Shown here: in pieces, positions 15,748-23,908 of the stretch
How positions within the stretch are numbered: position 1 is the first letter of the stretch
Layout of the letters: each line of letters begins with the position of its first letter
Source of the DNA: Bdellovibrionales bacterium
Lineage (GTDB): Bacteria; Bdellovibrionota; Bdellovibrionia; Bdellovibrionales; UBA1609
Direction: 5' to 3'
DNA length: 48,867 nt
Assembly (NCBI GenBank): GCA_020628165.1
Contig: JAHDFM010000025.1
Coordinates: forward strand, 1-48,867
The notes under the pieces: model-generated
Seen by the model: only the letters and a program-made list of their open reading frames with translations
What the model was told of the DNA's origin: nothing
The model's database searches: none
Made by a program: the position numbers and the translations under genes

Positions 15748-18700
15748 TTGTTTAAAAACGATGTGTTAAAATTTATAAAACTGCTCTTACTGGTCAGTAC
15801 TCCAGCTTTACTGACATCGTGCAGTTACGACAAAACTGAACTCACTCTCGGCTCTGCTTTTGATATAACTTGGGAATTTAACTCAAGCAACAATTACGAT
15901 TTTGATACCAACCTCGTTCAGTTTCAAAATGGCAAAGTAATTTTAAAGCCCCTTGATTTAGAAAATTCAGGCGAAGACTTTCAAGCTGGCAGCCATGCAG
16001 GATCTCACTTTTCACAAAATGCTTTATCAATGCAAACAAACCCTGAAACCAACATCATAAATCTTTTGCCTGATCACGCTGAAAACGTTGAAGCCTATTG
16101 GAGATTTGAAAATTCATGGGATGATCTTTCTAAAAACAATTACAATTTAACAGTTTCAGGAGATAGTTTAAATTCATCAGGTCCGAAAGTGGGAACTGCC
16201 TCTTCTTATTTTGATGGAGCTGGCGATGAAGCTAGAGTTGATATCACCGACTGGAATGCGACTGAGTACTCTCTTGTCTTGTGGGTTAAAACATCTAACC
16301 TTACGCAACCCCACCCTACTGGTGTATTTACTAACGATCAAGCATCTGGGGCGACTGGTGATTCTTTTCAAGTGACAATAGATGGTGTAGGTTCAGGGCA
16401 ATATCTATATCATTCAACAAACGGTTACTCTCTTCCTATTGGACCTATCAGTGAATCATGGGTTCACCTTGGAGTGACTTATGATGGCGCGACATTAAGA
16501 ACTTACTATGACGGAATTTTAACTTCAGAAACAACAGTTCCTCTATCCGCTGCCGGTTTGATGTTTCAAAACTATCACATTGGAACCAACAGAAACCGTG
16601 TCAATGACTTCGAAGGCAATATTGATGAAATTGCTGTATTTAGAAATCAACTTGAATCAGAAGATATTTATAAAATCTACTTCAATCAAAGTTCTAATTT
16701 CAATGAGCTCTCACCCAACTGGACTCCTAAGTGGGATAATATAGTTGGTTACTGGAAAATGGATGGTAACTGGAGTGACTCTTCTGGCCTTAATAATCAC
16801 GGTACTCCTCACAACAATGGTGTTACAGATGATAATCTTCCTGTCTTTTCTACTTCATCTCAAGTTGGAAATAGTTCTGCAGTCTTTGATGACGAAGTTG
16901 CTCTCCAATATGTTGAAATTAATAACTCACCTAGTTTAGAAAATTTTCAAGAATCTAGTTTTTCTATGCAAGTTTGGTACTTCCCAACTGAGCTGCCAAA
17001 CAATACAGACAACATAAATACCAACCATGGCTTACTCGTAAAGCAAGGCAATTCACTGGGTCTTATCTATCGTCCAGATGGACAATTTAACTTTGTACTA
17101 TGGGACAGTTCAAATGTTCAAAGAGCAGTGCAATCCATTCAAACATTCAATCCTGGAAAGTATTATCATATTGTTGGAGTTTTAAATAAAAATAATGATA
17201 CAGCCTACCTCTATATCAATGGTGAGCTAGTAAATACTTTAGATTTTAGTGGCCTATCAGTTCGAGAATATGGCGTTAGCCCAACACGTATTGGCGCAAG
17301 TAGCAATACAACGGCATCTACTAGTTATGGAGCCTATTCAGATGGTTTTTTAGATGATGCTGTTATATGGAATTCAGCTCTCTCTGCTTCAGATGTCAAA
17401 CTTATTTATGATCGCCAAAAACAAAAGTTCTCTAGCCAATTTGAATCTGAAGTTTTTGATTTGGGTAGCACAACCTCATCATGGCCGGATCTTTCTTGGG
17501 TTACAACTCTCCCCTTCAACAAAGAACTTGTTGGTGACTACGACAATGATGGCAACCCTGAAAGTGAAAACACAGCGAGTTATTCTAAACTTAGTGAAAC
17601 TTTAAATATTGGTTTAGTTGCTTATTATGCTTTCAATGAATCACAGTACTCGGGACTCACCGGAGAAATCAAAGATCTGAGCGGAAACAATCATGATGGT
17701 CAAATCTCTCCTGGAGGTGCAACAAATACAATTCCTGGTAAATTTAATAAGACACTACCACTCAACACCAGACTCCACATTCCGGCAGCGAGTGCACCAA
17801 CAATTTCTGACAGCTTTTCTATTTCTATCTGGGTGAAAGGCAATGGCCAAAATGCGACCGCCTTCTGGTCAAACATTGCTAAAGGAGATGGCTCCAACTA
17901 TTTGAATTACATAAAAATTGAACCCACTTCTGGGGCCATGACATACGGAATTAACTTAAGAACTAATGGAGTTGGAAACCAGACTTTAAGGTCAACCTCG
18001 GACGTTCTAGATGGTGATTATCACCACGTTGTTTTTACTGCAGATGGCACAAATCTAAAAATATTTGTGGATGGAGTTGAAGAAGGCTCAAGAACTTATG
18101 CTATCGCTGGTGGCTCTACCATCGATGATCCGACAGCCAACTTGAATATCGGAGACACCGGCAGTGAAATCATTCTCGATGAAGTTGCCATCTGGAGCCG
18201 TGACCTAACGGATGATGAAGTTCAGCAATTGTACCGGAGAGGAGCTAACCGAGTGAAATTTCAAGTCAAAAGCTGCATCGACTCTGCTTGCAACTGCAAA
18301 AGCTATAACGTAGCACCCGCAGGAAGTGAGACCGACTGTGATGGCGATGGCACACCAAACTTAACAGACACTGATGACATTCACAAAGCCGACTTCATTG
18401 GCCCAGGTGGTGATGGCACCACTTACTACAGTGAGCTTTTTAATAGAGCTCCTAGTGACATCACTTTTAACTGCGCACTCAATACCACCGATAGTGATCC
18501 CGGTGTTTGTGTCGATGATGAAATCTCACAAGTTGGCAATTCAAAACCAACTCATCCAGAATTTTTAAATCTTGATTATACTCAGTTTGTGACACCTGCG
18601 ATCAACAGGTACGCCCAGTACCGCGTTTTGTTAGAAGCCGATGACAACACGGCTTGCAGTGGTGCGCCTTGCCTTCCAGAGCTCAGCTCGGTCAGTCTTA

Positions 18701-19038
18701 ACCCAAACAATGCTGTTAAATACTCAAGTGAGTATGTAGAAATAAAACCAAAAAACGCCATCAGTTTTATCTCTATTAAAGATGCAAAAATCACAGCCGA
18801 TGATTGTGCCAGTTTCCGCCTTCACCGAGGTCCAAACTCATATTATCACGACGGCTCGTCTTGGGTTTTGGTAAGTGATGAGTCACACAGAAACATTGCC
18901 TCTGAAGTAACCACTCACATCAAACAGTTTGCCTCCCAATTCGGAGCTGGAGAGCTTGAAGTCATTGGTTATTTGAAATCAGACATCACACAAAGCGATC
19001 AGTGCAGCATTGAATCTATAGATGTTAACTACGAGTAA
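15748..19038 (+). CDS. large surface lipoprotein with three LamG-like domains
   Basis: The 1096-residue product starts at TTG and has a type II signal peptide with lipobox LTSC (Cys25). Three concanavalin/LamG-like jelly rolls are visible by their openings: VEAYWRFENSWDDLS near 114, IVGYWKMDGNWSDSSG near 332 and LVAYYAFNESQYSG near 623. Each ends in a strand such as NIDEIAVFRN or LDEVAIWSRDL. The last 250 residues are Asp- and Cys-rich (CIDSACNCK, DCDGDGTPNLTDTDD); the DGDGTPNLTDTDD stretch resembles a calcium-binding thrombospondin type 3 repeat. LamG domains usually bind sugars or proteins on other surfaces, so adhesion or carbohydrate binding at the cell surface is a fair inference. The stop is 10 bases from that of purF on the other strand. 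Confidence 0.85.
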   Translation: MFKNDVLKFIKLLLLVSTPALLTSCSYDKTELTLGSAFDITWEFNSSNNYDFDTNLVQFQNGKVILKPLDLENSGEDFQAGSHAGSHFSQNALSMQTNPETNIINLLPDHAENVEAYWRFENSWDDLSKNNYNLTVSGDSLNSSGPKVGTASSYFDGAGDEARVDITDWNATEYSLVLWVKTSNLTQPHPTGVFTNDQASGATGDSFQVTIDGVGSGQYLYHSTNGYSLPIGPISESWVHLGVTYDGATLRTYYDGILTSETTVPLSAAGLMFQNYHIGTNRNRVNDFEGNIDEIAVFRNQLESEDIYKIYFNQSSNFNELSPNWTPKWDNIVGYWKMDGNWSDSSGLNNHGTPHNNGVTDDNLPVFSTSSQVGNSSAVFDDEVALQYVEINNSPSLENFQESSFSMQVWYFPTELPNNTDNINTNHGLLVKQGNSLGLIYRPDGQFNFVLWDSSNVQRAVQSIQTFNPGKYYHIVGVLNKNNDTAYLYINGELVNTLDFSGLSVREYGVSPTRIGASSNTTASTSYGAYSDGFLDDAVIWNSALSASDVKLIYDRQKQKFSSQFESEVFDLGSTTSSWPDLSWVTTLPFNKELVGDYDNDGNPESENTASYSKLSETLNIGLVAYYAFNESQYSGLTGEIKDLSGNNHDGQISPGGATNTIPGKFNKTLPLNTRLHIPAASAPTISDSFSISIWVKGNGQNATAFWSNIAKGDGSNYLNYIKIEPTSGAMTYGINLRTNGVGNQTLRSTSDVLDGDYHHVVFTADGTNLKIFVDGVEEGSRTYAIAGGSTIDDPTANLNIGDTGSEIILDEVAIWSRDLTDDEVQQLYRRGANRVKFQVKSCIDSACNCKSYNVAPAGSETDCDGDGTPNLTDTDDIHKADFIGPGGDGTTYYSELFNRAPSDITFNCALNTTDSDPGVCVDDEISQVGNSKPTHPEFLNLDYTQFVTPAINRYAQYRVLLEADDNTACSGAPCLPELSSVSLNPNNAVKYSSEYVEIKPKNAISFISIKDAKITADDCASFRLHRGPNSYYHDGSSWVLVSDESHRNIASEVTTHIKQFASQFGAGELEVIGYLKSDITQSDQCSIESIDVNYE

Positions 19039-20614: not shown

Positions 20615-21505
20615 TCAAAAAACATGTCTGCGCAGGGCCTGAAGGTTGTCACTATACTCTTCAGCCTTCATTTGCTGGGTGCAAACGTACATTTTGTCTA
20701 AATGACCAACAATGTCTTTGTGGTAAGGATTTATCGCTAGAGCTTTTTCAAAATGAATGACTGCATTTTGATAATCGTTTTGCAGCAAGCTCTTTTCAGC
20801 TTCTACCAGAGAGGTCTGCCACAACGAACTGTCCACTGAGACAAGACTTGCCTTTATATCATTCAATTGCTGCTTATAGGCTGTTGGAAATAAAACGAGG
20901 TCTTCTTTTGAACCCCCATTACCCGCTTCAGCTTGAAAGTAATTGTGTATGGCCAAAAAAAGAACTTCAGCTTCAGACTGACAATAACTACGAGTTTTGA
21001 GCTTCTGCTCCTCTTCAGGGTGACTGAAAAAACTAAACTCAGTCAGTATAGCCGGAATCTGCAAACGAGCACACTCTCGCAAAACATACAGGCCATCTTT
21101 AAACACCCAGTTATCAGAAAAGCCAAAGGCCTCCCCTCGGTCCGTCTTTGAGAGCTCAGTTTTAAAGCTGTTGATCAATTGCTGAGGCAAGCTGTCAACA
21201 TTGGTGTGAATGTAAAAAAATGGGAAATTAATAGATTCAATCACAGGGTCACAACTGGCGTGATGAACAGACAAAAACAAGTCCGCCTTACTGTCTTTGG
21301 CAAGTTGAACTCGTGACTCTAAAGACGTCTCAAAGTCTCTCCGCCGAGTTAAAGTGGCCAGATAACCTTTGGCTTCCAACAGAAACTTCAACTCCCTAGC
21401 CACTCTAAGGTTGATCCACTCTTCTCGCTCCCCAGTTGGGCCTTGGCGAAATGGGTCTTTACCCATTGTGCCGCCATGTCCGGGGTCAATCACTATGTGC
21501 TTCAC
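20615..21505 (-). CDS. Amidase_3-type N-acetylmuramoyl-L-alanine amidase without signal peptide, C-terminal TPR-like tail
   Basis: The 296-residue product starts directly with MKHIVIDPGHGG and has no export signal. Zinc ligands and catalytic Glu of the Amidase_3 family are in place: His10, Glu28 (GEREEWINL), His81 (DLFLSVHHA) and Glu156 (PAILTEFSF). Residues about 215-285 look like TPR helices (LLQNDYQNAVIHFEKALAINPYHKDI). The fold cleaves the MurNAc-L-Ala bond. Family members are usually exported, so a cytosolic version downstream of ldcA and mpl suggests a role in recycling, like AmpD but from an unrelated family. Its start overlaps the mpl stop by 4 bases (ATGA). The enzyme class is firm; the cytosolic role is inference. 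Confidence 0.9.
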   Translation of the reverse strand: MKHIVIDPGHGGTMGKDPFRQGPTGEREEWINLRVARELKFLLEAKGYLATLTRRRDFETSLESRVQLAKDSKADLFLSVHHASCDPVIESINFPFFYIHTNVDSLPQQLINSFKTELSKTDRGEAFGFSDNWVFKDGLYVLRECARLQIPAILTEFSFFSHPEEEQKLKTRSYCQSEAEVLFLAIHNYFQAEAGNGGSKEDLVLFPTAYKQQLNDIKASLVSVDSSLWQTSLVEAEKSLLQNDYQNAVIHFEKALAINPYHKDIVGHLDKMYVCTQQMKAEEYSDNLQALRRHVF

Positions 21506-22953
21506 AGAGTGATATCAGCCTGATTTAGAGTTTTTTTTTGAGCCAAGGCTTGTATCAATTTTTTATAAAGTCCATCAAAGCCGCCATTGCTCATTATCAG
21601 TATAACATCTCCCTCTTCAACGGTGGTTTGTAAGAAATCAACTATTTTTTCAGTCTCAGGAAAAGTGAATGCTTGCACCTGGTTTTCTTTAAGGTCTGCA
21701 ACTAATCTGTCTGAACTGAACCTGTCTTGTTCAGCTATGTTAGTTTGATTGAAAGGCTGTGCTATTATGGCGACATCTGTTTGTAAAAACGATTTTATAT
21801 AATCCTGTTGGAAAATATTACGCCTGGACGTTGCAGAACGGGGTTCAAACAAAGAGATCAAACGTCGCCCAGGAAACTGCTCACGCATAGAGGCCACTGT
21901 CAACCCAACTGCTGTAGGGTGATGAGCAAAGTCCTCCACAACGGTGACTCCTGCTTGATCGCTAATAATTTCTTGGCGTCTTTTAACACCTTTGAAATTA
22001 GCTAAACCTTGTAGTATGTGTGTGCGCTTTAACTTCATTTCGTTGGCTAAAGCAAACGTGGCCAAAGCATTCATGCTGTTGTGGTGACCAAAGACCTTCA
22101 AAGCAAGGTCTCCGACAGGAGTTCCCTGTTTGTACACAGCCATCTGATTGCGGCCTGAAATGTTCACTCTCTTGCCAAAGTAGTAATCAGAAGACTTGCT
22201 TTCACCATATGAAAAGGTTTTGCAACTGGCGTGATGAATGATTTTTTTAATATTTGGACAATCGCCATTGTAAACTAAGCTACCGTCTTCAGGAATGAGC
22301 TTCAAAAGCTTTGAGAACTCAGCTAAAATCTGCTCGATGCTTGAGTAAATATCGGCATGATCAAATTCAATGCCAGTGAGAATCACAAACTTTGGTTTGT
22401 AATGAACAAACTTAGGCACCTTATCAAAAAAAGCCGTGTCGTACTCATCCCCTTCGATAACGAAGTAATCGCCTTTGGCCACTTGAAAAGATTTATTAAA
22501 ATTCTGTGGAATGCCGCCAACAAAAAAACCAGGCTCTTCACCAGCAGTTTGCATCAGCACAGACATCATTGATGTCGTTGTTGTTTTGCCATGAGTTCCA
22601 CTGATGACAACCGCTTGCCGATCAGCAATTAAGACATCTCCCATGGCTTTGGGCAGACTTGTGTAAGGGATGTTTGAAGAAAGCAATGCTTGTGCTTCTG
22701 GATTGTTGCGAGAGATGACATTGCCTACAATCACAAAATCAGGTTTATATGCTAAGTTCTCTGCTTTATAGCCTTGCTGGATTTCAATGTCTAAATCAGC
22801 AAGCATGGTTGACATCGGAGGGTAAACATTTTGATCACTCCCCTTCACTTGGTAGCCAAGCTCTTGAAGTAAGCCCGCGAGGCTTGCCATGGCTGTGCCA
22901 CAAATGCCCATGAGGTGTATTTTAGATCCTGGTTGAAGATCAGTGATAGTCAT
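21502..22953 (-). CDS. mpl: UDP-N-acetylmuramate:L-alanyl-gamma-D-glutamyl-meso-diaminopimelate ligase
   Basis: The 483-residue product has the Mpl opening IHLMGICGTAMASLAGLL and GSDQNVYPPMSTML, the P-loop GTHGKTTTTSMMS and the Mur-ligase segments DYFVIEGDEYDTAFFDK and VEDFAHHPTAV. Mpl joins the recycled tripeptide to UDP-MurNAc, returning murein peptides to the cell-wall pathway. The NVYPPMST signature separates it from MurC. ATG at 22953 is preferred because GGAG (22961-22964) is spaced 7 bases from it; a start six codons earlier lies ahead of that site. Its first bases overlap the end of ldcA by 14, and its end overlaps the amidase start. Confidence 0.95.
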   Translation of the reverse strand: MTITDLQPGSKIHLMGICGTAMASLAGLLQELGYQVKGSDQNVYPPMSTMLADLDIEIQQGYKAENLAYKPDFVIVGNVISRNNPEAQALLSSNIPYTSLPKAMGDVLIADRQAVVISGTHGKTTTTSMMSVLMQTAGEEPGFFVGGIPQNFNKSFQVAKGDYFVIEGDEYDTAFFDKVPKFVHYKPKFVILTGIEFDHADIYSSIEQILAEFSKLLKLIPEDGSLVYNGDCPNIKKIIHHASCKTFSYGESKSSDYYFGKRVNISGRNQMAVYKQGTPVGDLALKVFGHHNSMNALATFALANEMKLKRTHILQGLANFKGVKRRQEIISDQAGVTVVEDFAHHPTAVGLTVASMREQFPGRRLISLFEPRSATSRRNIFQQDYIKSFLQTDVAIIAQPFNQTNIAEQDRFSSDRLVADLKENQVQAFTFPETEKIVDFLQTTVEEGDVILIMSNGGFDGLYKKLIQALAQKKTLNQADITL

Positions 22954-23908
22954 CCTTAACTCCTGTTGCAATTTCTATGGTTGGTTTATCTCCGAGCTGA
23001 AGTTTCGCTCTTGTCATAAGAGGCACCGGTCTTTGCTTTGTCGAGTGACCCAGCGGTAAATTTTTTAGCACAGGAAAGTTTACTGATTTAGCAAAACGCT
23101 TTTGCACGTCTTTCCATAGTGCTTTTGAGTCTTTTTCTACACCGCCAACAAAGTCTCCAAATATAAGTGCACGGATCCCGTTAAAGTAACCGGCTTGTTG
23201 CAATTGCACCAACATACGATCGACGCGGTAACCCCGCTCGCCAATATCTTCTATGGCCAGTATTTGCCCCTTAGCATGAGCCTGGTAAGGCGTGCCCAAC
23301 GAGGCCAGTATTATAGTTAAGTTGCCACCTGTCACAGTTGAACGAATGAGCTTACTTTCTTTAGCTTGATCATTGAGAGGCTTTAAATTTTTATAAATGA
23401 CATTTTTTTTGTGAGAAAAAAGAATATTTTTTAAATCATTTAGCTCTTTCTTGCTCACGGACTTATCCACAACTTCTTCTAGCATAGAAGCATGTAGGCT
23501 TGGCCACTGCCACTTATAATTAACGTATGCATGCAAATGAGTGATGTCACTGTACCCGACAATGAGTTTTGGTAGTTTTGGCTGTTTTAAACGCGATAAC
23601 ATTGGTAACAAGCGCGAAGCCCCATAACCGCCTCGCAAGCACCAAATCACTTTTGAATCCTTTGCCTCAAGAGCTTTCTTAAGCTGTATGTAACGATTTT
23701 CATCAGAGCTGGCACAAAGCAAATCAGAACCAAAGATGCCCGGTTGATAACGTGCTTGTAAGCCAAGGCTCTCTATGAACTTCAATGATCTTTTTAAAGT
23801 TTTGAAGTCCGTGCCTGACGAAGGAGCTATGACATCAACGATGTCTCCTGGCTCCAAACATTGCCATTGTTTAATATTTTTTAAATCAAGTTTAACCGTT
23901 TTCAACAT
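22940..23908 (-). CDS. ldcA: LD-carboxypeptidase (S66 family)
   Basis: The 322-residue product contains the S66 elements: VIAPSSGTD near 27-34, CLRGGYGASRLL, nucleophile Ser120 in IVGYSDITHLH, Glu220 in AIEDIGERGYRVD and His288 in GHSTKQRP. The Ser-Glu-His triad is therefore intact. LdcA removes the terminal D-Ala from murein tetrapeptides in the cytosol, producing the tripeptide that Mpl uses. No signal peptide is present, as expected. It is the first gene of ldcA-mpl-amidase. The gene symbol is by function; microcin-immunity (MccF) relatives share the fold but the context favours LdcA. Confidence 0.92.
   Translation of the reverse strand: MLKTVKLDLKNIKQWQCLEPGDIVDVIAPSSGTDFKTLKRSLKFIESLGLQARYQPGIFGSDLLCASSDENRYIQLKKALEAKDSKVIWCLRGGYGASRLLPMLSRLKQPKLPKLIVGYSDITHLHAYVNYKWQWPSLHASMLEEVVDKSVSKKELNDLKNILFSHKKNVIYKNLKPLNDQAKESKLIRSTVTGGNLTIILASLGTPYQAHAKGQILAIEDIGERGYRVDRMLVQLQQAGYFNGIRALIFGDFVGGVEKDSKALWKDVQKRFAKSVNFPVLKNLPLGHSTKQRPVPLMTRAKLQLGDKPTIEIATGVKDDYH

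Follow-up and report, generated by a model that had tools for sequence, protein, structure and literature searches.

We report a three-gene operon from a Bdellovibrionales genome whose products very probably (roughly 0.8, judging by sequence analysis) handle the peptide side of murein recycling in the cytosol, with a leaderless Amidase_3 enzyme replacing AmpD at one step. The three genes lie on the minus strand of the window, by which is meant the whole 48,867-nucleotide stretch of DNA that was analysed: ldcA (22940..23908), for an LD-carboxypeptidase of family S66; mpl (21502..22953), for the UDP-N-acetylmuramate:L-Ala-gamma-D-Glu-mDAP ligase; and the amidase gene (20615..21505). Their overlaps of 14 and 4 bases, which an earlier note on this DNA had described, were borne out by the coordinates and the sequence. 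The first reads atgactatcactga, with the mpl ATG at 22953, and in the second (GTGA) the GTG start of the amidase lies within the mpl stop. Scans for promoters and terminators returned scores not above those of shuffled sequence. The same note had named the first two products LdcA and Mpl, and both identities hold. LdcA (322 aa, no signal peptide) matches both Peptidase_S66 domains in Pfam (PF02016/PF17676) and carries the motifs GYSD (118), EDIGE (220) and GHS (287), and Mpl (483 aa from its ATG) scores 401 bits vs the curated TIGR01081 cut-off of 388.7, a distinct murC-like gene being located on contig C53 of the same genome.

The third product (296 aa, GTG start) matches PF01520 at 97.4 bits against a cut-off of 27, covering positions 1-173 of the 174 in the profile, and has no match to PF01510 (Amidase_2). 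In its catalytic domain (residues 4-196; 20918..21496, minus strand) the residues previously reported as kept, His10, Glu28, His81 and Glu156, are indeed in place together with His82 and are invariant in 59 homologues. A structural model built on these 59 sequences reached a pLDDT of 91.5, superseding a poor four-sequence model (71.9), and aligned to solved bacterial Amidase_3 structures with Z of 22-25 and rmsd of about 1.6-2.6; the best-detailed alignment, to 4rn7, gave Z 25.3 and rmsd 1.8 over 181 residues. The catalytic domain, fold, zinc ligands and catalytic Glu are therefore those of AmiA/AmiB/AmiC, but these are exported wall hydrolases, whereas the window's amidase is leaderless and coupled to mpl. 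Neither this protein nor its counterparts in the genus have the signal peptide or lipobox that marks exported hydrolases of the AmiA/B/C type. The open frame comprises 299 codons for a 296-codon gene, leaving only three in-frame codons upstream, so that an upstream signal peptide is excluded, and an overlooked start with a leader is ruled out by the in-frame stop. The claim that the enzyme begins directly at its fold thus stands, and in the other members of the genus the domain is preceded by 4-15 codons that are not hydrophobic. Its description as having a TPR-like tail stood in part. A helical C-terminal tail exists (about residues 203-296; 20618..20900, minus strand), its similarity to TPR_1 is weak (E 0.001, below Pfam's cut-off), and a tail of this kind is common to exported homologues and is therefore not peculiar to the leaderless amidase; the idea of a special TPR docking domain was set aside on these grounds.

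The genomic surroundings in which such an enzyme would operate were assessed in the window's genome, which, like the other hosts analysed, is a metagenome-assembled genome (3.19 Mb, 56 contigs, 99% complete). The search for AmpD, NagZ and AmpG that had been proposed as a check yielded zero matches to Amidase_2/AmpD (PF01510) in this 99%-complete assembly, an AmpG of 526 bits vs a cut-off of 350, and two GH3 genes, of which the one for a 365-aa leaderless protein lies above the curated beta-N-acetylhexosaminidase (NagZ) cut-off. With AmpG and a cytosolic-type NagZ present, the cytosol can be expected to contain imported anhydro-muropeptides. The second GH3 protein (G000:C48:37557-38528; L040:4474-6072; 532 aa) has a signal peptide and may be a periplasmic or secreted NagZ-like enzyme alongside the cytosolic-type one. 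A separate second Amidase_3, with a signal peptide, is also encoded (L001).

In the proposed route, AmpG would import GlcNAc-anhydroMurNAc-peptides into the cell and NagZ would strip the GlcNAc, upon which the leaderless Amidase_3, a predicted zinc N-acetylmuramoyl-L-alanine amidase, would cut the lactyl-L-Ala bond and free the stem peptide; LdcA would then remove the terminal D-Ala, converting tetra- to tripeptide, and Mpl would ligate the tripeptide to UDP-MurNAc. The activity of the amidase, its substrate and its cytosolic location are predictions, recycling being inferred because of the operon context, the presence of AmpG and NagZ and the distribution of alternative amidases. The AmpD recycling route is established in E. 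coli (PMC9790009), and AmpD (Amidase_2, PF01510; 1,6-anhydro-MurNAc-L-Ala amidase) shares with the window's enzyme the predicted reaction, compartment and pathway position as well as dependence on zinc; the latter may thus act like AmpD yet belongs to another, unrelated fold family. Release of peptides from imported muropeptides, as the earlier note had suggested, is supported by the missing AmpD, the presence of AmpG and NagZ and the conservation of the trio within the genus; neither of the refuting conditions named in that note was borne out. Its wording of an alternative recycling route is too strong, as a different enzyme would serve one step of an otherwise ordinary route, and its thought that a predator could reclaim prey wall in this way meets the point that membership of the Bdellovibrionales is by itself no proof of predation. 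AnmK was not found in the window's genome, nor in nearly all of its family, which counts against a simple picture of the pathway and leaves the fate of anhydroMurNAc unexplained by the proposed route.

Among the 141 Bdellovibrionales genomes searched, the trio occurs in all four of the window's genus, where mpl and the amidase gene overlap by 1 or 4 bases, and is absent from the other 137; the co-occurrence that was to be checked in related genomes is thus found within the genus. The usual operon of the order is instead ldcA, a leaderless PF00144 protein of about 355 aa (for example L054:422-1501 and L064:435-1496) and mpl. This slot protein belongs to the beta-lactamase fold family, its best curated relative being PBP4B, far under the cut-off. 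Its orthologue was counted in 119 of the 141 genomes, a count in which G139 and G140 were assigned by elimination, and it was not found in the window's genome. The 22 genomes without it comprise the four of the genus, 13 that encode an AmpD-type enzyme lacking a leader, and five in which none of the three enzymes was found (G009, G026, G130, G131 and G140). The contig of G009 ends just before mpl, the G026 assembly contains no mpl, and the completeness of G026, G130, G131 and G140 ranges from 61 to 89%.

Outside the genus, 18 genomes lack the PF00144 gene, and 13 of them have a leaderless AmpD-type enzyme vs 1-2 of the 119 with the gene, where only G097 has an AmpD above the curated model cut-off, besides the doubtful G112. 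The AmpD of G112 lies with mraZ- and ftsZ-like frames on a 3.1 kb contig (G112:C24:1-3138; L239) that is probably a contaminant, the genome having 6% contamination. Other Amidase_2 proteins of PF00144-keeping genomes were discounted as exported (G005, G035, G040, G116) or prophage-like (G056, adjoining a DNA methyltransferase), and that of G058 was not classed as AmpD in view of its long N-terminal extension. The gene order gives the pattern its detail: G015 carries ldcA, AmpD (273 bits vs the curated cut-off of 143) and mpl in that order, and G027 has, between ldcA and mpl and on the opposite strand, an AmpD-like gene that falls short of the curated AmpD cut-off. Seven small genomes from reduced members of the family (G004, G016, G017, G020 and G031-G033; 1.2-2.0 Mb) keep an AmpD-like gene and mpl, save that the G032 assembly is without mpl; the AmpD-like proteins of small genomes match the AmpD model alone, under its cut-off. 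Neither AmpG nor an Amidase_3 wall hydrolase was found in these seven, and the lack of AmpG in several AmpD-bearing small genomes was counted against the proposed route.

Loss of PF00144 and presence of AmpD are associated at a raw Fisher p of about 1e-12, which treats related genomes as separate. The Mpl tree implies at least 3-4 changes for the AmpD state, and the independent pairs on well-supported branches number three, all or nearly all as expected (sign test p 0.25). The complementary pattern is therefore suggestive on independent events, because the pairs are few and the genomes related, and strong in the detail of gene order. The best reading of these data is that one recycling step would be filled by a PF00144 AmiE-like protein in most of the order, by AmpD in several lineages and by a relocated Amidase_3 in the window's genus. 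The PF00144 protein is accordingly a candidate AmiE-like recycling amidase. It shares its Pfam family with B. subtilis AmiE (YbbE), an amidase that acts on muropeptides and does not hydrolyse the intact wall (PMC10653849, PMC5061867), whose gene lies beside that of NagZ in a recycling operon and which acts extracellularly (PMC5061867); the serine hydrolase fold of AmiE is unrelated to the window's amidase.

The ancestry of the leaderless enzyme was traced through a scan of species genomes, in which a single-sequence query gave no match and a four-sequence alignment of the genus retrieved another 77 loci, found in Bacteroidota, Balneolota, Neomarinimicrobiota, Sumerlaeota, Acidobacteriota, Gemmatimonadota, two Lysobacteraceae and other taxa. 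By a simple hydropathy rule rather than a trained predictor, 75 of the 77 have a hydrophobic leader upstream of the domain, with a lipobox-like motif in 30, and no mpl occurs in their fetched surroundings. Outside the genus, the closest homologues, with 33-46% identity across the aligned portion, are exported Amidase_3 proteins of about 330 aa from Bacteroidota, Balneolota, Neomarinimicrobiota, Sumerlaeota and Lysobacteraceae, which have the same helical tail and differ from the window's amidase in their signal peptide or lipobox and in not adjoining mpl. In a quick tree of the catalytic domain, built from bacterial sequences and with SH-aLRT support only, the leaderless enzymes of the four genomes cluster together, and the cluster joins exported amidases from Bacteroidota and Balneolota and stands apart from the order's canonical Amidase_3 proteins (100% SH-aLRT). 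The leaderless proteins contain 4-8 cysteines each vs a mean of 1.7 in the exported homologues; residue 83 is Ala in all four and residue 175 is Cys in the window's amidase, both positions being Asn in 98-100% of the exported set. The Mpl tree gives the Amidase_3 state a single origin (100/100). We infer a transfer from an exported lineage into the ancestor of the genus, followed by loss of the signal. This would amount to a convergent replacement, in which a signal-bearing amidase became translationally coupled to mpl in that ancestor and the PF00144 enzyme between ldcA and mpl was meanwhile lost. Both the descent from exported enzymes and the occupation of the slot by other amidases in relatives, as read from sequence comparisons, go beyond the earlier note.

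The same ancestry lends itself to another explanation, namely that the protein is an ordinary wall amidase reaching its substrate by non-classical export, release on lysis or injection into prey, its adjacency to mpl reflecting a shared cell-wall theme. The leaders of its closest non-genus relatives (75 of 77) favour this, as does the fact that leaderless Amidase_3 domains are known from phage endolysins. We nevertheless regard it as improbable: translational coupling to mpl is maintained throughout the genus, a canonical Amidase_3 is retained as a second enzyme in the near-complete genomes of the genus (a signal was shown for that of the window's genome), AmpD occupies the same operon slot in relatives, and the raised cysteine content suits a reducing compartment. 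That the amidase might instead act on precursors within the cytosol (UDP-MurNAc-peptides or lipid II), thereby tuning wall synthesis or precursor turnover, agrees with a predicted cytosolic enzyme coupled to a Mur ligase, but it is partnered with Mpl and LdcA, which are specific to recycling, and not with murC-F, AmpG and NagZ are in the genome, and AmpD is the counterpart in relatives, which together make a role on precursors very unlikely. Least credible, at a few chances in a hundred, is a captured phage endolysin retained by chance or for self-lysis, for although the catalytic domain has hits to endolysin families in PHROG (E 1e-16) and phage endolysins match at 31-34% identity, these matches are partial, with no phage record covering 80% of the amidase, the C-terminal tail is held in common with exported bacterial homologues, and the tree of bacterial sequences joins the protein to the exported Bacteroidota and Balneolota enzymes, leaving phage capture unsupported.

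With recycling as the preferred role, we consider it likely that one recycling step is served by three unrelated amidases that are interchangeable at the ldcA-mpl operon within a single order, that one of them is an exported hydrolase turned cytosolic, and that most Bdellovibrionales use the PF00144 protein as their recycling amidase. AmpD would then be just one of several solutions to this step, an analogous case being Vibrio cholerae and Acinetobacter, where unrelated enzymes stand in for LdcA (PMC9790009). Genomes that are Mpl-positive and AmpD-negative are easily misread as having incomplete recycling, and the operon shows where the missing amidase may sit. If the reading is true, the recycling amidase of predatory Bdellovibrionales would be a beta-lactamase-family protein, and the window's genus would directly exemplify how an exported wall hydrolase is domesticated as a cytosolic recycling enzyme. 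No description of a cytosolic Amidase_3 recycling enzyme, or of such an operon, was found in the open-access literature searched, which is weak evidence of novelty.

Elsewhere in the window, a surface-protein-like reading frame of 1096 aa with three Laminin_G_3 (concanavalin-like) domains extends over 15748-19038 on the plus strand and adjoins purF.
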